Below, in pieces: positions 4,809 through 28,831 of a DNA stretch of 64,000 bases (position 1 is its first letter; each line of letters opens with the position of its first letter). The DNA comes from an uncultured Clostridia bacterium. GTDB lineage: Bacteria; Bacillota; Clostridia; Christensenellales; Aristaeellaceae. Under the pieces are notes generated by a model. The model did no database searches and was not told where the DNA came from. It was given only the letters and a program-made list of their open reading frames with translations. Position numbers and translations under genes: made by a program. The stretch lies in contig CAMVEB010000001.1 of assembly GCA_947166385.1 (NCBI GenBank), forward strand, positions 1 to 64,000, given 5' to 3'.

Positions 4809-6062
4809 TTATTCCCGGTTGAAGGTACAGTTCCGCAGGATGGCCAGTGCAATATCCGGATACCGCCATTCAATCTTATTTCTGTCAATGATGCCGAATC
4901 TTTCTCCGTTGCCCCGGAATACATGGTTGTCCCACCAGCAGCAGGTTATCCCCCTGGTGCTTGCCGATGCAGTGTAGTATGCGGCCAGGTTCACCCTCGC
5001 CTGCAGATCCAGGTCGTCATCCTTCTTGTTCAATGCTCCGTATTCGTCGATCAGTACCGGGATTCCCTGTGAAACATAGGTCTTATAGAGGCTGTTCATA
5101 AAGGATGCGATATCGCTCTTTTTCCCCGTATCGGTTTCCAGATTGAAGCTGGAATCGCCGCTCTTCATGTTCAATGCGAAATCATACGGCCGATAGGCAT
5201 GAACTGACACAATGATCCGGTTGTCTGCGGAATCTTCCGGCATCCGGAACAGCGTGCTCAGCGCGCCGTCCGGGCTGGCGCAGTATCCGGGTACCGCAAG
5301 GTAACGGTTCGCATTGTTCCCGCCGGTTCCGCGTACCAGATCAACAAATTTCTGGTTCAGCCTGTTGATGCATTCTGCGGCATCCTGACAGGCTGGCGCG
5401 CCTGTGTTCAGATACCATTCGTATGGAGTATCGACAAGCCTCGGCTCATTCATCGATTCCATGATACAGTGATCGTCAAATTCCGCGAATGTTTCAGCGA
5501 TTTGTTTCCAGATGGCGCTTAAGAATTTTTCAGACTGCTCATAGTGTTCACTGTCCGGATAAAAAAGCTCGACGCCGTTATCGTGGTGAACATTGACGAT
5601 AAAGTACATGTCTTCGTCTGCAGCCCATTGTGCCACTTCCCTCACCCGGGCCAGCCACGCCGGATCCACAGTATAATCCTCGTCGATGATATGGTTATGC
5701 CAGCTGACCGGAATTCGGATCAGATTGAATCCGGACATTTTGAGGGCATGGATGAGTTCCCTGGAAGTACGGACGCCGACCCAGGAGGATTCTGTCTGAA
5801 CTCCCTTATTGTTTATTTTCCATCCGTCATGGGCGTCAAACGTGTTTCCCAGGTTCCATCCGGCCTTTAGCGTCCGGATAAATGCCAGCGCTTCGTTGTC
5901 CGGCAGGTCGAATTTTTTCAGGTTGTCTTCAGTGAAAACAGGGATTTCGACACTTCCTGATGCGACTGGGACAACATTTTCTTCCGCGCCTTCCGAGATG
6001 GAAAATGATAAGCATAGGATCAGGATCAGGGAGATCATGAATGCGAAGAATCTTTTCATCAT
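4809..6062 (-). CDS. Secreted glycoside hydrolase family 5 endoglucanase
   Basis: The 417-residue protein begins with a signal peptide (hydrophobic residues 5-22, cleavage likely near SEGA) and continues as a single GH5 TIM barrel. The family start motif GWNLGNTFDA is at residues 68-77, the acid/base glutamate is E206 in MNEPR, and the nucleophile is E340 in LIDEYG. The form resembles subfamily 4 beta-1,4-glucanases acting on cellulose, xyloglucan or mixed-linkage glucan. No dockerin, carbohydrate-binding module or sorting signal is present, so it is probably released or loosely wall-associated. It is flanked by its own promoter and terminator, hence a single-gene unit. Confidence 0.92.
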   Translation of the reverse strand: MMKRFFAFMISLILILCLSFSISEGAEENVVPVASGSVEIPVFTEDNLKKFDLPDNEALAFIRTLKAGWNLGNTFDAHDGWKINNKGVQTESSWVGVRTSRELIHALKMSGFNLIRIPVSWHNHIIDEDYTVDPAWLARVREVAQWAADEDMYFIVNVHHDNGVELFYPDSEHYEQSEKFLSAIWKQIAETFAEFDDHCIMESMNEPRLVDTPYEWYLNTGAPACQDAAECINRLNQKFVDLVRGTGGNNANRYLAVPGYCASPDGALSTLFRMPEDSADNRIIVSVHAYRPYDFALNMKSGDSSFNLETDTGKKSDIASFMNSLYKTYVSQGIPVLIDEYGALNKKDDDLDLQARVNLAAYYTASASTRGITCCWWDNHVFRGNGERFGIIDRNKIEWRYPDIALAILRNCTFNRE

Positions 6063-6094
6063 TCTGTAACCACCTTTTTCTTTTTGTTTATAAT

Positions 6095-6123
6095 ATTATA
6101 AGCAATATTCTTCAGGATCGCAA
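6095..6123 (-). promoter_or_regulatory. Promoter of the GH5 gene
   Basis: On the minus strand TTGCGA (6123-6118) and TATAAT (6100-6095) are 17 bases apart. The element lies between the end of the histidine kinase gene and the endoglucanase start. Confidence 0.7.
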
Positions 6124-6136
6124 TATGAATCTCATT

Positions 6137-8431
6137 TCATTCTTCCGGCGGGAATTCCAGGATACCGTTCTCCGGCAGGACGATCTGCTCTGCCGGACCG
6201 GCCACCAGTGCAGCGGCTTCCGCCGCCGGCAGGTAGGATTCCAGCAGGTCCGGATGGTTCAGCCGGATCACGTCCGCCTGCGTTTCTTTCGCCGCTTTTT
6301 CCAGCGCGGCAGCTTTGGCGGAAAGCGCGGGCGCCCCGATCGTCGCCGCCGCGCTCTTGAGTGAATGGACGAGGATGCCGTAGTTTTCCCAGTCACCCGC
6401 GTCAAGGAATGCCTGCATCTCTTGCTGCTTTTCCCCTGCGCTCGCGGCAAATTCCCCCAGAAGCGTCAGGTAAAGGTCCTCATCCTCCCTGCAGTATATC
6501 AGACCCTGTTCCGGATCAATCCCTGCCCTTCGCAGCAGAGCATACCGGTCTGCGCGCGCAGGATCCATACCGGCGCTTTTCCTCTCCTTCGCTGCATCAG
6601 GCTTCCGGTAGAGGACTTTTTCATTGGGCAGGTAACGGAGCAGCGTTTTCTCCAGCATTTCGCTGCTGACCGGCTTGGCGAGATAATCCGTAAATCCCTG
6701 GGCAGTATATCGTTCCTTTGCCCCGATGATGGCATCCGCCGTCAGGCAGACCACCGGCGCTTCCCGGCTGGGGCTGTCCTCCATCTCCCGCAGGAGCCGC
6801 AGGGCTTCCGTTCCGTCCATCCCCGGCATACGCTGGTCCATGAGGATCAGGTCATATTTTCTCCGCTTCATGAGATCCAGCGCTTCCTGTCCCTGCCGGG
6901 CTGTATCAATCTGCACATCTGTTTTCTTCAGCAGTCCGGAAACAACCGCAAGGTTCATGCGGGAATCGTCGACAGCCAGAATCCTGGCATCCGGCGCGCG
7001 GAAAGTTTCATATTGGCGGTTTCCGGCCTGCCCTGCCCGGAGATTTTCCGGCCGGATGTCCCCCAGCGGTTCATCAGACACGATCCGCTGCGGCAGGCAG
7101 ACGGTAAAGACGGATCCTTCGCCGTATGTGCTCTGCACGGAAATCGTTCCGCTCATCATATCCAGGAATCTCCGGGTAATGGCCAGGCCGAGTCCGGTTC
7201 CCTCCACGGTGCTGTTCCGGTCCAGGTCCACGCGCTGGAACTTGGTAAAGATGCTGGGAATATCCTCCTGCCGGATCCCGATGCCGGTATCCCGTACGGT
7301 CACCTGCAGGAGGAGACTGCTTCCTGCCGGATCTTCCTTTCGGCTCCCGCGGACTTCCAGGCGGATTTCTCCCCGGTCTGTATACTTCACCGCGTTGGTC
7401 AGGAGATTGGTAATAATCTGGCGGATGCGGACCTTGTCTCCATACAGCCCGTTGGGAAGATCCGGATCCGCGTCGATGCGGTAAGCCAGTCCTTTTTCCC
7501 GGGCGCGGAAAAGAACCGTGCTGCTGAGATCCTGCAGGAGTGTGCGCAGTTCGTAATCGTTCTCCACCAGCGTCATCCTGCCCGCCTCAATCTTGGAGAA
7601 ATCGAGGATATCGTTGATAATGGACAGCAGGCTGCTGCCGGCGTTCTCAATGTTCGACGCGCAGGAATAGATACTGCGGAACGCATCCCTGCCGGCGTCG
7701 TCGGCGGTTTCTTTCTCTCCCCGCTCGCTCTCTCGCCGGATCATCTCATTCATTCCCAGCACCGCGTTAATGGGCGTCCGTATTTCATGCGACATTTCAG
7801 CAAGGAAATCGCCCTTGGCGCGGTTTGCACGCTCTGCCTCATCCCGGGCACGCCGCAGCTGCGCGGCGTAATCCATCTGGTCGAGGACGCTCCGGTGATA
7901 CTGGATCATCACGAACGCGGTAATGATAAAGAGAAAGAAATACAGGATCGGAAAACGGTCCATAATGATAGCCGAATAGTTCTGCTCCACCAAGCGGCGC
8001 AGCGGCGTATAGAAAAGCATGAAATACAGAAGCGTAAAATATCCCGAGACCAGGATACCCGGCCGAACCCCGAAAAGGTAGCTGACCGCCAGGGGAATCA
8101 GAATTGTCCACAGGAAAGCAAACCCATTGGAAAGGAACAGAACATCGTAGGTCAGCATCATCACAACAGCGATCAGCGACAGAATCATGGCCGCCCTGCG
8201 GTTCCTGCGGCAAACGGTAAAATACCAGGTCACGCCGCCGGTCACCATAAAGGGAACGGACGTCATGGCAACCGAATACTCCCGGGACGCAAGGTTCACG
8301 ATGAGCATGACCAGACCTGCCGCCGCCATGATGACGGAAAGAACAGCGATGCTTTTCATGTTTCTTTCATACCGTTCCCCGATATAAATGTTTTCCCCCA
8401 GCATCTTCCAGGTCTTCCGGATGGTCTTCAC
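6137..8431 (-). CDS. Hybrid sensor histidine kinase with receiver and HPt domains
   Basis: This 764-residue protein carries about six membrane helices at residues 25-178, with no recognisable extracellular sensor. It continues with a HisKA domain (phospho-acceptor H215 in MSHEIRTP), an HATPase domain (N346, DTGIGI at 381, GTGLGL at 411), a receiver domain (phospho-acceptor D532 in LILMDQRMPGMDG) and a C-terminal HPt domain (H689 in LVHSLKS). It therefore contains a complete phosphorelay except for the output regulator, which is not encoded next to it. I place the start at the GTG at 8431, which follows a GGGAGGAG site; the frame is open upstream to 8596 but has no ribosome site there. Confidence 0.92.
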   Translation of the reverse strand: MKTIRKTWKMLGENIYIGERYERNMKSIAVLSVIMAAAGLVMLIVNLASREYSVAMTSVPFMVTGGVTWYFTVCRRNRRAAMILSLIAVVMMLTYDVLFLSNGFAFLWTILIPLAVSYLFGVRPGILVSGYFTLLYFMLFYTPLRRLVEQNYSAIIMDRFPILYFFLFIITAFVMIQYHRSVLDQMDYAAQLRRARDEAERANRAKGDFLAEMSHEIRTPINAVLGMNEMIRRESERGEKETADDAGRDAFRSIYSCASNIENAGSSLLSIINDILDFSKIEAGRMTLVENDYELRTLLQDLSSTVLFRAREKGLAYRIDADPDLPNGLYGDKVRIRQIITNLLTNAVKYTDRGEIRLEVRGSRKEDPAGSSLLLQVTVRDTGIGIRQEDIPSIFTKFQRVDLDRNSTVEGTGLGLAITRRFLDMMSGTISVQSTYGEGSVFTVCLPQRIVSDEPLGDIRPENLRAGQAGNRQYETFRAPDARILAVDDSRMNLAVVSGLLKKTDVQIDTARQGQEALDLMKRRKYDLILMDQRMPGMDGTEALRLLREMEDSPSREAPVVCLTADAIIGAKERYTAQGFTDYLAKPVSSEMLEKTLLRYLPNEKVLYRKPDAAKERKSAGMDPARADRYALLRRAGIDPEQGLIYCREDEDLYLTLLGEFAASAGEKQQEMQAFLDAGDWENYGILVHSLKSAAATIGAPALSAKAAALEKAAKETQADVIRLNHPDLLESYLPAAEAAALVAGPAEQIVLPENGILEFPPEE

Positions 8432-8536
8432 CGCGGCTCCTCCCTTCTCCGGTATTCCCTTTTCTGCAGTCCTTCCGTCCCGTCCGGATCTGCAGTTATG
8501 CTGCGCCCAACGCGCTGTGTTTTCTTTGCTCAAGTC

Positions 8537-8565
8537 AATATAGCATATGGATGATTTCCTGTAAA
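8537..8565 (-). promoter_or_regulatory. Promoter of the hybrid histidine kinase gene
   Basis: On the minus strand TTTACA (8565-8560) and TATATT (8542-8537) are 17 bases apart, giving a leader of about 100 bases before the GTG start. Confidence 0.6.
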
Positions 8566-8679
8566 TATCTCTGGATTCCTGGTTTCGTTTGATCAAAATG
8601 GAAGGTTCTATCTTCCTCTCTTCCCAAATTGCCTGAAAAATGATAAAATTGATAGGATTTGTGGTTGGGAGATGGTATT

Positions 8680-10044
8680 TTGAAGATCATTGTGATTGGT
8701 GCCGGTAAGCTGGGATACACACTGGCGGAGCATCTGACGGCGGAAGAACACGATGTCATCGTGATCGATAAGGATGATGATGTCGTGGAGCGTTGCTCAG
8801 GTTCGCTGGATGTCATCTGCCTGAAGGGCAACGGTGCCAATGCCAAAGTCCTGCTGGAGGCCGGGGTGGATAAAGCCAACATTGTCATCGCGTCCACCGC
8901 CAATGACGAGACGAATATGCTCGCCTGTCTGATTGCAAAAAGGCTTGGCGCGAAGTACACCATTTCCCGGATCCGTGATCCGGAATTTAATGAAAGCCAG
9001 ACTTTCCTGCAGAACGAGCTGGGGATCGATGTCGCCATAAATCCGGAGCGTGCCACAGCGCTGGAAATAAGCCGTCTTCTGCGGTATCCCTTTGCCGGAA
9101 GCATTGAGTCGTTTGCCCGCGGCCTCGTAGAAATGGTGGAGTTCCGTGCGGTGGAGACGGATCCGATCGTCGGGATCGCCATGAAGGACCTGGCCCAGAA
9201 AGTGCCTGGCCTCCCCCGTGTCCTGTATGCAATGGTCGAGAGAAATAATAATGTCATCATTCCGGACGGCGATTTCTTTATCCTCCCGGGTGACAAGGTC
9301 TTCGTTTCGGGCGACATGGTCATGATCACCAATTTTTTCCGTTTCCTGGGGCGAAACAACCAGAAAGTTCGCAGCATCATGGTCCTCGGTGGCGGCCGGA
9401 TCTCCTTCTATCTCGCGCGGATTGTGATTCCGATGGGGATCCATGTGACCCTTTTCGAGCTGAATTCGAAAAAGGCCCGTACCCTCAGCGAACTGCTTCC
9501 CAAGGTGGATGTGATTTTCGGCGACGGGACAGATCAGGAGCTTCTCCAGGAACAGGGTCTTTCACAGGTTGACGCCTTTGTTTCCCTCAGCAATCGGGAT
9601 GAGGAAAACCTGATGACAGCGCTCTATGCTTCCCGCAGCGGCGTGAAAAAGATCATCGCCAAAAACAGTCGCATGGCCTATACGGACATTCTGAATGATC
9701 TTGGACTCGATTCTGTGATCAGTCCGCAGAATATCACCAGTTCAACGATCCTGCGCTATGTTCGCGCCAGGGAAAACAGCAACGGAACCCATATTGAGCG
9801 CCTGTATCGCCTGATCGACGGGAAGGCGGAAGCCATTGAGTTTGTTGCCCGAAAAGGCGATTCCTATATTGGCATCCCGCTGATGAAGCTGAACAACCGC
9901 AAGGGTTCGCTGGTTTCGGTCATCGTCCACCAGGGCAAGATTATCATTCCCTTCGGCAAGGATCATATTGAGGAAGGCGATCATGTCATCATTATATCCA
10001 GAGACCTCGGAATATCTGATCTGAATGAGGTGCTCTATCAATGA
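8680..10044 (+). CDS. trkA: Trk potassium uptake regulatory subunit TrkA
   Basis: TrkA is the cytoplasmic NAD(H)- and nucleotide-binding gating ring of the Trk/Ktr potassium channel. The 454-residue protein has two RCK units: a first Rossmann fold with GAGKLG near residue 8 and a second starting with VLGGGRISFY near residue 235, each followed by a TrkA-C subdomain. The start is the TTG at 8680, which begins the first beta strand and follows GGGAG; an ATG is not available there. A weak TTGCCT...TAGGAT promoter precedes it. Its last four bases overlap trkH, so the two subunits are translationally coupled. Confidence 0.94.
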   Translation: MKIIVIGAGKLGYTLAEHLTAEEHDVIVIDKDDDVVERCSGSLDVICLKGNGANAKVLLEAGVDKANIVIASTANDETNMLACLIAKRLGAKYTISRIRDPEFNESQTFLQNELGIDVAINPERATALEISRLLRYPFAGSIESFARGLVEMVEFRAVETDPIVGIAMKDLAQKVPGLPRVLYAMVERNNNVIIPDGDFFILPGDKVFVSGDMVMITNFFRFLGRNNQKVRSIMVLGGGRISFYLARIVIPMGIHVTLFELNSKKARTLSELLPKVDVIFGDGTDQELLQEQGLSQVDAFVSLSNRDEENLMTALYASRSGVKKIIAKNSRMAYTDILNDLGLDSVISPQNITSSTILRYVRARENSNGTHIERLYRLIDGKAEAIEFVARKGDSYIGIPLMKLNNRKGSLVSVIVHQGKIIIPFGKDHIEEGDHVIIISRDLGISDLNEVLYQ

Positions 10045-22581: not shown

Positions 22582-24429
22582 TCATCCGTTTCGGATGTTT
22601 TCAATATTGTCCATGCTGCCGCCGCCCTGATCGTCAGCCGCCCGGAATTTTCCCTTTTCCACCAGTCTCAGGAAAGCATCCACCACGTCAGGTGTCAGCT
22701 GTGTTCCTGAAACATCTTTGATAATGCTGACAGCTTTGTCAAAATTCATTCTGTTTCTGTATGGCCGGTTGGAATACATGGCGTCAAAGGTATCCGCCAC
22801 GGCAATAATCTGCGCCACGCGTGGAATTTCTTCTGCTTTCAGCCCGTTGGGGTATCCTCTTCCGTCCGGTCGCTCATGATGCGCCAGTGCCCCGGTTGCC
22901 AGATCCGGCATGATGCTGATATCCTTCAGAACCTGATATCCTTGCGAAGTGTGTGACTTGATGATCTCATACTCCTCGTGCGTCAGTTTGCCTGCCTTGT
23001 TCAGCACTTCTTCGGGCACGCCAATCTTTCCGACGTCATGAAGAAGCGCAATCCGATAATACTTTTCAACGGTTTCCTGATCGCATCCGAGCTCTGTGGC
23101 AATCATGGCAGTGAATTGAGCCACGCGGGTGGAATGTCCGTTCGTATAGCTGTCCTTCATATCGATAACTTTCGCAAATGCTTCAGAAAGCTCCCGGATA
23201 TAGGCCTGGTTTTCTTCGTGCTGTTTCTTCAGGACCTGTGTCTGGCTGCGGAACAGATAGATACCGATCAGGGTCATAAAAATGAACACACCGGTTCTGG
23301 TAAAGCTGGTTGAACCGTAGCTCTTGGAAAAATAGAAACGGATGATATCAGTCGTTACACCGGCCGCGCAGGAAACAATCCCGATCATCATGCATCGAAG
23401 GAGTTCCCTGGAAATCGTTTTTTCTTTCGCTGCACGGATGACAAAACAGATCGAAACAGCAAATGCAAATCCGATAATCGCATGGCTGATGTAAACCAGA
23501 TAGTAGTAATCGGAAATTCCACGGTATGTCAGAATCACCTGAACTCCGAAATTAACAAGGCACAGAACCAGCGTGCCGGTCACCCATTTTGATCCGCTTC
23601 TGCCGGTGGCTCCGGCAAAAAAGGACATGGCCGGGAATGGCATGAACATCAGGCATGCATACGTAATCACGCGGATAAAAGCCGGGTGATGAGACATAAG
23701 CTGCAGTAAGGTTGTATCGTTGAATCCGGAAAAGCCGATCAGGAGGCTCATAATTCCGAAGGAGGCAAAATCAAGCCCGGCTGATTTCATCAGGATGCGG
23801 CTGAAAACCGCGATAATCAGAAACAGAAAGCCGATCAGGAGATAAGCGGCCGACCGTGTAAAGGGGATCATATTTCTGCTGAAATGCTCGGACATATAGA
23901 GGCCGGCGTCTTCGATCATCACTCTTTCCAGGCTCGGAGATGTCTCCGGAAAGACAGGATCCAGGCGAAGACGGAGGTACTCCGCATGCTCGGGAATCAC
24001 GACAGTGTGAACGTACATCCCGTAGGATTGGCCGAGTCTTTTGGGAATGGCGGGCCGGTAGGAATAGATCAGCTGGTCATCCGCATAAACGTCAAAATCC
24101 GTATCAATGCTTTTGAAGCACAAAGCCTGTCCGTTTGAATATAAGCCGCGTACTTCTTTCCGGATGGTGATGGAGCCTGCAGGAAGATCATACAGGTTCA
24201 GTGCTGTGTCGGAGTTTTCCCAGGACTCCGTCATCCATCCCTCATTGGCCGGCATGCCGTTGGAAGGATAATATCCTTGGCTGTCTCTGTCCACATAGAG
24301 AGAAACGGCTACGAACAAAAGAAAGATCACGAAATACACGATCTGTTCCCTGGTGGATCGAAGATTGCTCCTCCGGATCTTGTTCCTGTCCTGTAATCCG
24401 GATGTTTCAGACGTTTTTTTTCGTTTCAT
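22582..24429 (-). CDS. Membrane HD-GYP cyclic-di-GMP phosphodiesterase
   Basis: The 615-residue protein has one N-terminal helix (31-46), an extracytoplasmic stretch of about 140 residues, seven further membrane helices (roughly 190-395), a short coiled linker and a C-terminal HD-GYP domain. The metal ligands are H464-D465 in LLHDVGKIG, and the family signature HHERPDGRGYP is at 517-527. HD-GYP proteins hydrolyse cyclic-di-GMP. The topology resembles 7TMR-DISM receptors, which sense extracellular ligands. The gene starts one base after the stop of the GGDEF gene, so synthesis and breakdown of the messenger are encoded in one transcript. Confidence 0.93.
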   Translation of the reverse strand: MKRKKTSETSGLQDRNKIRRSNLRSTREQIVYFVIFLLFVAVSLYVDRDSQGYYPSNGMPANEGWMTESWENSDTALNLYDLPAGSITIRKEVRGLYSNGQALCFKSIDTDFDVYADDQLIYSYRPAIPKRLGQSYGMYVHTVVIPEHAEYLRLRLDPVFPETSPSLERVMIEDAGLYMSEHFSRNMIPFTRSAAYLLIGFLFLIIAVFSRILMKSAGLDFASFGIMSLLIGFSGFNDTTLLQLMSHHPAFIRVITYACLMFMPFPAMSFFAGATGRSGSKWVTGTLVLCLVNFGVQVILTYRGISDYYYLVYISHAIIGFAFAVSICFVIRAAKEKTISRELLRCMMIGIVSCAAGVTTDIIRFYFSKSYGSTSFTRTGVFIFMTLIGIYLFRSQTQVLKKQHEENQAYIRELSEAFAKVIDMKDSYTNGHSTRVAQFTAMIATELGCDQETVEKYYRIALLHDVGKIGVPEEVLNKAGKLTHEEYEIIKSHTSQGYQVLKDISIMPDLATGALAHHERPDGRGYPNGLKAEEIPRVAQIIAVADTFDAMYSNRPYRNRMNFDKAVSIIKDVSGTQLTPDVVDAFLRLVEKGKFRAADDQGGGSMDNIENIRNG

Positions 24430-24430
24430 T

Positions 24431-25843
24431 TTACCGCCTCAGTTCCGGATTGTTGTGATAGTATTTTTCTTTGTCCTGATACATCCGTTCATCTGCTTTT
24501 TTCAGAGCGTCTCTGATTTTCCTGGAATTCCGGATCACACAGCAGCCGACGGCAAAGCTCACATACGGATAATCAGAAGCCAGGCGTTTGATCTCTTCAC
24601 ATCTCTTATCAAGTTCCTCTTTCTCGATGCCGCGGGTCAGGATCATAAACTCATCACCGCCAGCGCGGTAGATTTCATCTCCGGCAAAAACCTGGCGCAG
24701 GACAGCCGTACCGTTCATCAGCATCCGATCTCCCTCTTCGTGACCGTATCGGTCGTTCACCCGCTTCAGGCCGTTCAGATCCGCAAAAACGACGCCCAGC
24801 TTGTCAATGCTGATGTTTCCTTCCCGCAGCTCATCGATTCGGTTGTTCATTTCGTTCCGGTTCATAATCCCTGTAAGCATGTCCATGGAGCTGAGTTCCC
24901 GGAGACGGGTTAACAGACTGTAGTTTGCAATCTCGGAAGCGATAAAGTAAGTACTGAGTTCCAGTGTTTCTTTGATCTGCAGGGTATGAACCGTATCAAA
25001 ATTGGTTGCCCAGATATACCCGATGAGTTCGTCCCCGGACTTGAGCGGGAAAATCACCAGGCTCTGAACACGGGACTTCATCAGCGACTGATACCAGACG
25101 ATATTTCTTTCCCGGATATATTCCATGTCTGCCAGATCCTGCGCAATCAGACAATTGCTGCCGCCGATCGTGTCGAGCCATGACAGGGCGATATCATAGA
25201 AACCCGGCATCATTTCTTTTCGGATATTGTTCAGTTCATCCGAGGCTTCAATGGCCTCACTCAGAATCCGGCATGTTTTCTTTCTGGTATCCATCAGCAG
25301 GACAACACAGTTTTTGGCTTTGCACAGATTCCGCAAATCCAGGATCACGCTGTTCATCGTGCGTTCGAAATCGAATTCATCCTTTGTGCCCCGCAGTTTG
25401 ATGCAGGTGCTGAGAACATCCTTGGCAGTATTCTGGGAAATGCCGGCCATCTTCTCGGTCTCAGCCTGATGAGAGATCACCTGGGTATAGGTGCAGTAAT
25501 GAATATTCCCTTCGCGTCCAACCGGAAGCATGAAGATATCAAACCAGAAATCAAAGCGTTCCGGATGGACATAGGTATGCATGGGTTTCTTCAGGACAGC
25601 ACAGTTGTAACAGAACAGTTCAAAATTCAGGTCTTTCGGAATATACTTTTCATAGAGGCTGTTGGGGATAAACTGGGTTGCCTTCAGCATCGGAACATCG
25701 GGGGAAGGATGTACAATGGAATCAATATAAGCCTTGTTTCCCGTCACAATTCGTATTTCCCCGCAGGAACCGTCTTTCTTTTCTTCCACCGACATAATAC
25801 AGGTCATAGCATCAATCTGATTCACAAATTGCTGCAGGTCCAT
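24431..25843 (-). CDS. GGDEF diguanylate cyclase with a GAF-like sensor region
   Basis: The 470-residue protein makes cyclic-di-GMP. An N-terminal PAS/GAF-like region (1 to about 310, with a GAF-type segment at 150-310) precedes a GGDEF domain with the active-site motif GGDEF at 395-399. The inhibitory RxxD site is absent: FAGD stands at 386-389. No membrane helix is evident. The ATG at 25843 follows GGGGAGA. The downstream gene encodes a cyclic-di-GMP phosphodiesterase and starts one base after this stop. An extended -10 promoter (25884-25892) precedes it. Confidence 0.92.
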   Translation of the reverse strand: MDLQQFVNQIDAMTCIMSVEEKKDGSCGEIRIVTGNKAYIDSIVHPSPDVPMLKATQFIPNSLYEKYIPKDLNFELFCYNCAVLKKPMHTYVHPERFDFWFDIFMLPVGREGNIHYCTYTQVISHQAETEKMAGISQNTAKDVLSTCIKLRGTKDEFDFERTMNSVILDLRNLCKAKNCVVLLMDTRKKTCRILSEAIEASDELNNIRKEMMPGFYDIALSWLDTIGGSNCLIAQDLADMEYIRERNIVWYQSLMKSRVQSLVIFPLKSGDELIGYIWATNFDTVHTLQIKETLELSTYFIASEIANYSLLTRLRELSSMDMLTGIMNRNEMNNRIDELREGNISIDKLGVVFADLNGLKRVNDRYGHEEGDRMLMNGTAVLRQVFAGDEIYRAGGDEFMILTRGIEKEELDKRCEEIKRLASDYPYVSFAVGCCVIRNSRKIRDALKKADERMYQDKEKYYHNNPELRR

Positions 25844-25883
25844 AGAAATCTCCCCTACTTTCCTTTTTTTCGTGGCTGTCTGG

Positions 25884-25892
25884 ATTATACCA
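25884..25892 (-). promoter_or_regulatory. Extended -10 promoter of the GGDEF/HD-GYP operon
   Basis: On the minus strand TGGTATAAT carries the TGn extension, and no good -35 box is found at the usual distance. Confidence 0.5.
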
Positions 25893-25913
25893 GAACACTC
25901 CGGCAACAGGGCA

Positions 25914-26430: not shown

Positions 26431-27543
26431 TCAGTACATTTCTACCAGGACAGCTTCTTCGGATGAAAAATAATCATCAGAATGGCTGCTGATTCCGGAC
26501 GCCAGATATGCCTGTTCAAAAGAGATATCCTCACGGTTACTCAGATAGACGAAGGTGGAATCCTTTGCTGCGTTTGGCATTCTTCCATTGATTTCAAGTC
26601 TGTATTGGTAAGGCTGATCATCGCACATCCATGTTCCGTCGGTCATTTCATGGTAGGTTTTGATATTTCCGGCGATCGTGCTTTTGATGGAATACTTCTC
26701 CAGCACAATCGCTTCTTCTGGTTTTTCGCCGCCATCACTGTATTCGGGGACAAGACTCAATCCGTTAAGATCCTCCATGTATGGATACATCACGGAAAAG
26801 GCAACGCCGTCGCTGAGCACCTCTGAAGCGCCGAAAAGATCGAAGGAAACCGGTTCGCCGTTCTGATACAGATTCCAGCAGGCAATGACATCCGTTCCGT
26901 TTCCTTCCTCTCCTTCCTGCCAGGCGCGCCAGCTGTCGGCTTGTTCCGGTGAGGTCAGGATGACTGCGCCCTTCAGGCTTACTTTTCCCATATACAGAAT
27001 GGCATGGGCCCGGTAATCAGTGGAAGGAGAAATGCCTTGCAGGTATTCGCTGTAAATATGCCGCTCCAGGGAAAAGCGGAGCGTTTGTTTTTCTTCGCTT
27101 CCGGGAATTCTGTAAACCAGGCAGAATGTCTGGCGATCTGCCAGCTGGTTATCCGGAATGATGCATTCTTTCCACCCGATGATCGAACCGTCATCTTTTT
27201 GTACGCTTCCGCCTGCTATGATGTCCGCGTAGGAACCGTCTTCAAGAGACAGGCCGTCTTCCTCATAAATAGCTCCACTTGCTTTGTAGGAAATGTAGAT
27301 ACGGTTTCCTTCACAGTAAGCCTGACTGACCTCTGCGGTAACGGATCCCGTGGTTTGTGAAACGGATATCGTCTCGGCGACCTGATCCAGAATTGTCAGT
27401 CGTTCGTCATCATATTCAGTCTCCGTCATTTCACGGAAGAGACCGCCTTCGGCGGCAAACGCTGCCGATACAGAAAAAGCCAGCAGGAAAGCTGTGAAAA
27501 GCAGGGTGACGCTCTTTTTGAACAGACTGGTTTTTGTGCTCAT
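26431..27543 (-). CDS. Secreted protein of unknown function
   Basis: The 370-residue protein begins with a long positively charged signal peptide (SLFKKSVTLLFTAFLLAFSV, cleavage near AFA-AEG). The exported part is made of beta-rich repeats. Segments such as AEVSQAYCEGNRIYISYKA recall the DUF4179/DUF5643 ectodomains of anti-sigma factors, but no C-terminal membrane helix is present and this likeness is weak. I chose the ATG at 27543, which starts the signal peptide. It lies 73 bases after the CARF-nuclease gene on the same strand and may share its transcript. Confidence 0.7.
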   Translation of the reverse strand: MSTKTSLFKKSVTLLFTAFLLAFSVSAAFAAEGGLFREMTETEYDDERLTILDQVAETISVSQTTGSVTAEVSQAYCEGNRIYISYKASGAIYEEDGLSLEDGSYADIIAGGSVQKDDGSIIGWKECIIPDNQLADRQTFCLVYRIPGSEEKQTLRFSLERHIYSEYLQGISPSTDYRAHAILYMGKVSLKGAVILTSPEQADSWRAWQEGEEGNGTDVIACWNLYQNGEPVSFDLFGASEVLSDGVAFSVMYPYMEDLNGLSLVPEYSDGGEKPEEAIVLEKYSIKSTIAGNIKTYHEMTDGTWMCDDQPYQYRLEINGRMPNAAKDSTFVYLSNREDISFEQAYLASGISSHSDDYFSSEEAVLVEMY

Positions 27544-27616
27544 ACGGACATCCCCCATCCAATGAAATAAACAGATTTGGCTGCAGCGATACATTTTCAA
27601 TAATAAAGCAATCGGC

Positions 27617-28831
27617 TCATCGTATTGGTTCGGAATCAGGGAATTCGCTTTGATTGTTCTTCATGAATCGCTGAATGCACGAACCAAGATGTCCTCCCTG
27701 CAAATCATTCAGATCAATCACCCGGATATTCAGTTCAGCGGCACGGTTCCGCGCGGAAGCCCCGGCAATCTCTGCTGTAACAATGGCAGCCTGTGCCATT
27801 TCACCGCCGAACCGGTCCCGGAGAATCGCCAGTTCATTCAGGGCTTCTGTCCGGATCGCACAGGTTTTGCAGCTGATAAACACGGGGGTAATCCCTCTGG
27901 TGCACATGACATCCAGTTCATTGGAAACAGGATGATTCCTGTCATCGCCGTTCCAGTCTACCACCGCGCTGGTTCGCACATCGTGGAATAGGCCGGAATC
28001 CAGGCAGGCTTTATAAACATACAGTTCCAGAACGCTTCCCACATCCCGTAGCCATGCCCGGATCTGGGAATCGCGGAAGCAGAAAGAGACACGTTCATCC
28101 GGAACGATTTGCAGTTCACAGATCATCCGGATCTTTTCCAGGTCTCGCAGTGCTTCTTCCGGAGCCGTCAGTTTGGCGCCGTGCTCTCCTTTGACAGTAT
28201 AGTCTCCCCGGATATCCAAGGAATAACTTCCGTCGTCCCGGGCCGGTGAAATCCGTTGAATGTAGGATACGATTCGATCCCACTGTCCCCGATATTTCAG
28301 GAACACGCTGAAGAAAGGATCATAGTCATCCATATAGCGGAAAAGAATGCTGTTATCCACCCGGCCTTTGCGCATGGAACCGCCGGCCATCAGAAAGCAG
28401 TCCTCCACGGACAGGGAAATATCGCACGGAACACCGTGAACAGATTGTGCGTGCTGAATGCTGTAAAAGCGGTTCCGAATCCGGCTGTACGTAACGACAG
28501 GGATTTGCTCTTCGGCGCAGGCAAGCCCCGCGGCAAACAGCACAGCGTCCGTTCCTCCGGTGATATCCAGCACGGCGTCCGGATATTCCGGCAGAATACT
28601 CCTGAAAACCCGGAGAATAGCCTGCGTATCATAAATATTGACATGCACAAACCGGATCCGCGTTTGAATACCGCGATGCAGGAAGTATTGATGCAGCTGT
28701 GCTTTCGCATTGGACGGCGTTGTCCCTTCCGGACAGACGTAAATGACCAGTTCCGGATGAAAAATCTCGACGCCCAGCACATTTTCAAGCGGCCGTTCAT
28801 CATACAGTTCAACCAGCGTTTTTGTTTCCAT
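27617..28831 (-). CDS. CARF-domain nuclease of the Card1/Can2 (DUF1887) type
   Basis: The 404-residue protein has an N-terminal CARF-like Rossmann domain, with the ligand-binding motif DITGGT at 89-94, and a C-terminal PD-(D/E)XK nuclease domain: E269 in GSVLELY, D307 in SNELDV and K322 in FISCKT. Card1/Can2 enzymes are activated by cyclic tetra-adenylate made by type III CRISPR complexes and cut DNA or RNA. The position before the lysine that is usually the second acid (ExK) is S320. No CRISPR array, cas gene or cyclase is present in the window. The ATG at 28831 follows CAGGAGGA. It starts 14 bases after the MATE pump gene, so the two probably share a transcript. Confidence 0.8.
   Translation of the reverse strand: METKTLVELYDERPLENVLGVEIFHPELVIYVCPEGTTPSNAKAQLHQYFLHRGIQTRIRFVHVNIYDTQAILRVFRSILPEYPDAVLDITGGTDAVLFAAGLACAEEQIPVVTYSRIRNRFYSIQHAQSVHGVPCDISLSVEDCFLMAGGSMRKGRVDNSILFRYMDDYDPFFSVFLKYRGQWDRIVSYIQRISPARDDGSYSLDIRGDYTVKGEHGAKLTAPEEALRDLEKIRMICELQIVPDERVSFCFRDSQIRAWLRDVGSVLELYVYKACLDSGLFHDVRTSAVVDWNGDDRNHPVSNELDVMCTRGITPVFISCKTCAIRTEALNELAILRDRFGGEMAQAAIVTAEIAGASARNRAAELNIRVIDLNDLQGGHLGSCIQRFMKNNQSEFPDSEPIR

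Follow-up and report, generated by a model that had tools for sequence, protein, structure and literature searches.

By its sequence, the 404-residue protein P0001 is a relative of Card1 and Can2, nucleases that are activated by CRISPR signals. We give even chances to the reading in which the active site of this stand-alone CARF4-PD-(D/E)XK nuclease is permuted and its trigger is probably not cA4. P0001 resembles Can2, Card1 and Cdn1 (DUF1887, PF09002) in domain order, in the GGT loop of the CARF domain and in the helix-A glutamate, the NExD motif and the xCK motif of the nuclease. It differs from them in carrying serine for glutamate in the ExK motif, glutamate for lysine at position 333 and aspartate for lysine after the GGT. 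The ExK acid and the lysine after the GGT, replaced in P0001 by S320 and D95, are both features of the Can2/Card1 cOA effectors.

Gene and domain organization

The window, by which we mean the whole stretch of 64,000 nucleotides that was analysed, encodes P0001 on the minus strand at positions 27617 to 28831, as an open reading frame of 404 residues with its ATG at 28831. A Shine-Dalgarno sequence, AGGAGG, lies 4 bases ahead of the ATG (28841-28836, minus strand), and the start is also backed by homologous starts. The frame is genuine and encodes a CARF domain followed by a Card1-like endonuclease, as determined by Pfam, PADLOC and profile matches. Residues 265-377 match Pfam Card1_endonuc (3.9e-7, above its cut-off), and residues 3-391 match the PADLOC model CARF4--CARF_PDDEXK (1.8e-41). 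A profile, A1, was built from 32 relatives of P0001 and searched against a PDB set, where it matched Can2 (2e-30), VC1899 (7.4e-28), Card1 (1.6e-16), 8bao (2.3e-15) and Cdn1 (1.3e-13). By the profile match to Can2 and Card1 the CARF domain covers about residues 1-130 (28442 to 28831, minus strand), and the listing for a low-confidence structural model gives CARF domains over residues 1-144. The endonuclease domain covers about residues 245-390 (27662 to 28099, minus strand; Pfam and profile). A CARF domain and then a Card1-like endonuclease are the features of membership in the CARF4-PD-(D/E)XK (DUF1887) family, and the matches bear out the earlier note, which had seen a CARF protein with a PD-(D/E)XK core, laid out as in Card1/Can2.

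The helix-A glutamate, NExD and xCK core is present throughout, as E269, N304-E305-x-D307 and C321-K322. E269 (28025 to 28027, minus strand), which is invariant in A1, corresponds in our own alignment to Cdn1 E274 (PMC12825302; papers are cited here by PMC number and for those parts of their text that were available). E305-L-D307 (27911 to 27919, minus strand) aligns with Can2 E276/D278 and Cdn1 E308/D310 (PMC12825302), and S320-C321-K322 (27866 to 27874, minus strand) stands where the others have E-C-K. Two named relatives at about 60% identity (L021 and L022) are each labelled 'uncultured Clostridiales bacterium', which suggests a Clostridia-like host for P0001 too. Among 12 genus sequences, dN/dS of the CARF gene was 0.06-0.33 over 66 pairs, and the gene is under purifying selection.

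Serine 320 is typical of its branch

In the alignments, the ExK glutamate of Can2, VC1899, Card1 and 8bao falls in the column of S320. The placement of a serine at the ExK acid, proposed earlier, was thus confirmed in register against Can2, Card1 and VC1899, and the residue positions given with it (T91-G92-G93-T94, E269, D307, S320 and K322) were right by translation and alignment. The 32 aligned sequences share 17-78% identity with P0001, and 12 columns are invariant among them, including E269, N304, E305, D307, S320, C321 and K322. In a survey that took in the genus loci, L020-L022 and those of 391 class genomes that carry the gene, and that gave 77 rows (6 without a letter at position 320 and 9 without one at position 95), 68 of the 71 lettered rows had serine at 320 and three had glutamate. 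These rows are not genomes, since some ORFs yield two rows, and the genus sequences are closely related; the family set excludes L023-L026, and L080 is a repeat of the window. The three E320 rows are L046, a 295 aa ORF with no CARF match, and the very large ORFs L125 and L127. A unique local defect at S320 was ruled out, serine being the usual residue of the branch. Some members of the family have decayed, as three S320 rows are without K322 (L126 has I, L128 T and L156 S). L128 and L156, with T or S replacing the lysine, adjoin Cas10-like sequence.

L124, L125, L126 and L127 (in G374, G295, G409 and G173) are frames of about 1330-1510 aa with a Card1-like nuclease match near the C-terminus; a Pfam protein kinase domain lies close to the beginning of the stretch read in L124 and L126, and in the part of L127 that was read no kinase was found. 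The Cas10 search gave no match in these four genomes. At L107:1489-3984 the CARF nuclease frame continues stop-free into a CCA tRNA nucleotidyltransferase domain. We did not count it as a fusion, because a separate ATG and ribosome site belong to the CCA part and suggest two genes.

An acid on the following helix

E333 (27833 to 27835, minus strand) lies on the helix that follows S320 and is proposed as the relocated catalytic acid. Letters at 320, 322 and 333 could be read in 85 rows, outside-class relatives included; this set leaves out L127, which has E320 and no letter at 333. S320 was found in 81 of the 85, with E at 333 in 70 and with K at 333 and an acidic 330 in 11. The four remaining rows have E320, and all four have lysine at 333. 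Lysine at 333 is also present in the five PDB proteins with ECK, namely Can2, VC1899, Card1, 8bao and Cdn1, and thus in 9/9 readable E320 proteins. An acid at 333 or 330 accompanies serine in 81/81 rows. Position 330 is not diagnostic alone, because 4/9 E320 proteins (two of the 85 rows, Can2 and 8bao) have an acid there too.

After a 50% identity filter, 44 S320 rows remained (35 with E333 and 9 with K333 and an acid at 330) together with four E320 rows. E333 is present in 35/44 S320 rows versus 0/9 E320 proteins, the four rows and five PDB chains taken together (Fisher 1.1e-5, kinship ignored). On a tree built from 60 of the 85 rows, each at least 60% filled and thinned at 65% identity, S320 changes three times and E333 four times, and the swap between 320 and 333 rests on about three changes. 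Over the two to three independent pairs, which are too few for significance, E333 follows the direction of S320 in an average of 1.9 of 2, and in no case the opposite one. The property 'acid at 330 or 333' is mostly the same within these pairs; significance is out of reach for both.

The predicted structure of P0001 (pLDDT 51) is too low in confidence to place E333. In Cdn1 the metal site consists of E274, E308, D310, E323 and K325; the E308A, D310A and E323A proteins have no activity, and docking puts N341 and K345 in contact with the RNA (PMC12825302). Counting along the Cdn1 segment gives the register E323 = 320, K345 = 333 and N341 = 329 or 330. The Cdn1 equivalent of 320 thus belongs to the metal site and that of 333 lies at the docked RNA, so that both positions share one pocket in Cdn1. 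Relocation of the ExK acid has been described in the CCGG restriction enzymes Cfr10I, NgoMIV and their kin (PMC551604, PMC6344858). As proposed here for P0001, the (D/E)XK acid of Cfr10I, NgoMIV and BsaWI is placed elsewhere, after the lysine (PMC551604, PMC4652773). The BsaWI acid is near, yet not at, the position of the NgoMIV acid (PMC4652773); this difference in place between BsaWI D175 and NgoMIV E201 recalls that between 330 and 333 in the S320 branch (PMC551604, PMC4652773). The spacing is K-x12-13-E in the CCGG enzymes and K-x10-E in P0001. The CCGG enzymes cleave DNA at specific sequences and have no CARF domain, and the likeness is one of analogy, not homology. From these alignments we infer that the site of P0001 is probably permuted (PD..SxK..E) and live rather than dead.

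SCK relatives in type III loci

A PF09002 match was present in 14 outside-class genomes, with Cas10 (E<=1e-6) in nine and none in five. In eight of the nine, Cas10 shares the contig of the matching gene and lies no more than 18 kb away; in G738, which has ECK, it lies at about 30 kb. The proteins with S320 and Lys95 (G703, G590, G612, G733, G616, G593 and G575) have a same-contig Cas10 within 18 kb in 7/7 cases, the G593 protein being one without K322. In G612 the gene order is cas6, CARF nuclease, cas10d (GGDD), cas7, cas5, cas7 and csx19. The SCK nuclease of such type III-D loci (G612, L152/L184) shares S320, C321, K322 and E333 with P0001, but differs in the lysine after the GGT and in its cas6, cas10d, cas7, cas5 and csx19 neighbours. 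The eighth protein, L158 (G755), combines SCK with an acid loop, GGEE. It is encoded 3.7 kb from a Cas10 reading GGED, and its gene heads a same-strand type III-B-like run with RAMP genes.

The presence of SCK copies within type III loci shows that a protein with the serine can belong to a CRISPR locus. In the earlier note, S320 had been one hint that the enzyme might have been repurposed as a binding protein. We do not read it so, because the serine is typical of the branch, the core is invariant, an acid is found in the next helix and SCK copies occur within type III loci.

The ligand loop carries an acid in place of the cA4 lysine

The CARF ligand loop reads T91-G-G-T-D95 (28547 to 28561, minus strand). 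Asp95 aligns with Can2 K99 and Cdn1 K104, the lysine used for cA4. Can2 touches cA4 via S19, T42, K99 and Y118 among others (PMC7969007), and the cA4-induced activity of Cdn1 is severely reduced by T9A, K104A and Y124A (PMC12825302). In the alignment of P0001 to Can2, K99 is replaced by D95, S19 by D11 and Y118 by T114. Position 95 is D or E in 22/22 of L001-L022; over the 68 lettered rows of the survey it is D or E in 49 and K or R in 10. A lysine or arginine stands directly before the acid in 11 of these 49 rows, none of them in the genus. The acid is not proof of a ligand other than cOA, because the acid-loop SCK protein L158 heads a III-B-like run. With moderate confidence, the alignments suggest a ligand other than cA4 for P0001. 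Of the two triggers raised in the earlier note, a distant CRISPR system and another messenger, we favour the latter.

No cOA synthase was detected in the genome of P0001

No CRISPR array was seen in the window, which has no direct repeats of at least 23 bases within 150 bases of each other. It had been stated earlier that the 64 kb hold no cyclase. This stands for cOA synthases and fails in general, since an ORF with a GGDEF motif lies at 24431-25906. By motif reading, neighbouring ORFs at 22582-25906 (minus strand) look like HD-GYP and GGDEF signalling proteins.

The search for Cas10 was run on the whole genome of P0001, which is 94.6% complete. It gave no PF22335 match at E<=0.01, a model that misses some divergent Cas10, and thus detected no cOA synthase; Cas1 gave no PF01867 match at 1e-5. 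Can2 and Card1 are cOA effectors, whereas no type III system was detected in this genome. SMODS was found in 0/61 genomes at 1e-5, that of P0001 included. For mCpol, 0/37 genus genomes matched at 1e-5, and 14 control genomes gave no match either, so that this search has no positive control. No family member was found in viral contigs by a P0001 scan and two FISCKNG DNA patterns, and plasmid matches amounted to one record for P0001 and two for Can2.

The CARF gene is present in 19/37 genus genomes (that of P0001 included) and in 1/24 others, many of these genomes being incomplete. Cas1 is present in 1/37 genus genomes, one without the CARF gene. PF22335 also matches GGDEF domains, and all 25 places in the genus were inspected. 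Among the 23 regions fetched, 22 have a GGDEF-like motif and one, L212 (G035), is without it; in a tblastn comparison the G024 protein had no match in any of the 23. The remaining two are L025, GGDEF by Pfam, and L026 (G024), which is Cas10-like. Thus 24/25 places were dismissed as not Cas10-like as far as read, by a GGDEF-like motif or by the lack of a match to the G024 protein. The G024 gene matches PADLOC Cas10d (1.1e-54) and Cas10 (1.9e-40) and has a GGDD motif. It belongs to a trio of Cas10-like, Cas5_IIId-like and Csx19-like genes on a contig different from that of the G024 CARF gene, and is the one Cas10-like gene among the 19 CARF-bearing genus genomes. The site of the trio is L210 (G024:C56) 5334-9136, with no repeat array in the 10 kb read.

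Because PF09002 misses P0001 in a six-frame search, the A1 profile was used for the class count. Among 391 class genomes A1 matched in 51 and Cas10 (E<=1e-8) in 43. Cas10 was present in 3/51 CARF carriers versus 40/340 others (Fisher 0.33), which is no positive link. The three carriers with both, G128, G199 and G294, have them on different contigs each time. Three is a lower bound, as tblastn revealed a Cas10-like stretch adjoining L128 (G153) that PF22335 had missed.

The MATE neighbour is not conserved

A MATE efflux transporter gene (PF01554; 28846 to 30231, minus strand) is the upstream neighbour and ends 14 bases before the CARF ATG on the same strand. The distance of 14 bases was given correctly in the earlier note. 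The pairing with a MATE pump that it inferred was not supported, since the adjacency was found in the P0001 genome only. By tblastn at 1e-3, over stretches of 1.8-17 kb, MATE was found at 0/21 genus or near loci outside the window and at 0/49 class loci. Conversely, 0/14 MATE ortholog regions hold a CARF gene, and 10 of these genomes have one elsewhere. In the 23 genus genomes searched, a MATE match at E<=1e-40 was present in 22, and one of at least 54% identity in 16, that of P0001 among them; in the relatives the matches lie elsewhere, in G002 for instance about 650 kb away from the CARF gene. We therefore dropped the CARF-MATE partnership, as the adjacency is not conserved at related loci or MATE regions.

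The called upstream ORF points the opposite way in 9/16 other CARF loci (mechanical ORF calls). CARF neighbours vary by locus; close relatives share some of them, and no partner gene is kept across the genus. A Pfam scan of 19 neighbouring ORFs left 9 without a match at 1e-5; the others belong to varied families (Schlafen-like, uridine-kinase-like, ABC, HAD, trypsin-like, EamA, GGDEF, diacylglycerol-kinase-like, amylase and AAA-M41). Directly downstream of the CARF gene in the window lies a 389 aa ORF with a DUF4179 domain (26431-27600, minus strand).

Proposed mechanism and alternative explanations

In the stand-alone nuclease proposed here, the metal-binding ExK acid would have left its place on the beta strand (320) for the next helix, at 333 or, in a sub-branch, at 330, and nucleic acid would still be cut using E269, E305, D307, K322 and E333. 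A ligand across the CARF dimer may bring two nuclease domains together, as in Can2/Cdn1. The protein of this genus probably responds to something other than cA4, derived from the host or from an infection, since Asp95 stands in place of the lysine that holds the cA4 phosphate and no enzyme making cOA was detected. The outcome would likely be nucleic-acid cleavage under stress or phage attack.

P0001 could instead be an ordinary cOA effector responding to a type III-like Cas10 that is encoded far off in the genome, is minimal or array-less, or is acquired occasionally, but this is unlikely. Such an effector would fit the outside-class proteins with S320 and Lys95, 7/7 of which have Cas10 within 18 kb, the acid-loop L158 in its III-B-like run, and G024 of the same genus with its unlinked GGDD Cas10-like, Cas5_IIId-like and Csx19-like genes. 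However, the P0001 genome has no Cas10 palm match at E<=0.01, though the search detected GGDEF and the divergent G024 gene in relatives; it has no Cas1 match either, and only 1/19 CARF-bearing genus genomes has a Cas10-like gene. The key lysine is replaced by D95 and Can2 S19 by D11, and the class genomes show no positive link (3/51, a lower bound, versus 40/340). A dead nuclease in a protein that serves to bind a ligand or nucleic acid, the repurposing of the earlier note, we regard as quite unlikely. P0001 lacks the canonical ExK acid, E323A abolishes the activity of Cdn1 (PMC12825302), and K322 is lost in L126, L128 and L156; yet E269, E305, D307, C321 and K322 are invariant in A1, an acid at 333 or 330 is present in all 81 S320 rows, and the gene is under purifying selection.

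A nuclease gated by a protein signal such as phosphorylation, not by a nucleotide, is suggested by the large ORFs of four class genomes that match the nuclease profile near the C-terminus, two of them (L124 and L126) with a Pfam kinase domain. One of the four, L125, matches PADLOC PD-T4-6 models, which we take to be kinase-type. These ORFs represent other, distant branches, however, L126 is without the core residues, and neither P0001 nor its two direct neighbours contain a kinase domain; we consider this gating very unlikely for P0001. Finally, a two-gene system for export or detoxification, made up of the CARF protein and the MATE pump, is hardly credible. The shared strand and the 14-base gap would agree with it, but it is largely contradicted already by the 21 genus or near and 49 class loci with no MATE match, the 14 MATE regions without a CARF gene and the opposite upstream ORF in 9/16 other loci.

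Relation to known systems

Every CARF family has members unlinked to CRISPR-Cas (PMC4012209), and CARF and Cas3 homologues are abundant outside CRISPR-Cas (PMC12669027). VC1899 (1XMX) is, like P0001, an orphan CARF nuclease unlinked to type III CRISPR and has an aspartate at the position of Can2 S19 (PMC7969007). It keeps ECK, Lys333 and an arginine after the loop, where P0001 has SCK, E333 and D95, and it retains one of the four Can2 cA4 contacts in kind (Arg96). VC1899 did not cut plasmid DNA and had only weak residual RNase activity, said not to be regulated (PMC7969007), although its ECK is intact; this weighs against the explanation favoured here. By title and start of abstract, no serine variant of the Card1/Can2 family was found in the literature; this scope did not extend to the CARF classification of 2020 or to the Card1 paper, so a prior description is possible. 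Orphan CARF genes are thus already in print, and the S320/E333 variant would be the new part.

As a tentative view, which we hold with less than even confidence, a large Clostridia-type branch of CARF nucleases may have left CRISPR, with an acidic loop, a non-cOA messenger made without Cas10 and the catalytic glutamate on the next helix. The S320/E333 pattern would provide a simple sequence rule that separates permuted from dead CARF nucleases, where annotation based on ExK would call them inactive. Genomes that carry the acid-loop branch and in which no cOA synthase was detected would be a tractable place to seek a non-cOA CARF ligand. If the branch has indeed left CRISPR in this way, P0001 and its relatives would represent a stand-alone CARF-based alarm system outside CRISPR.
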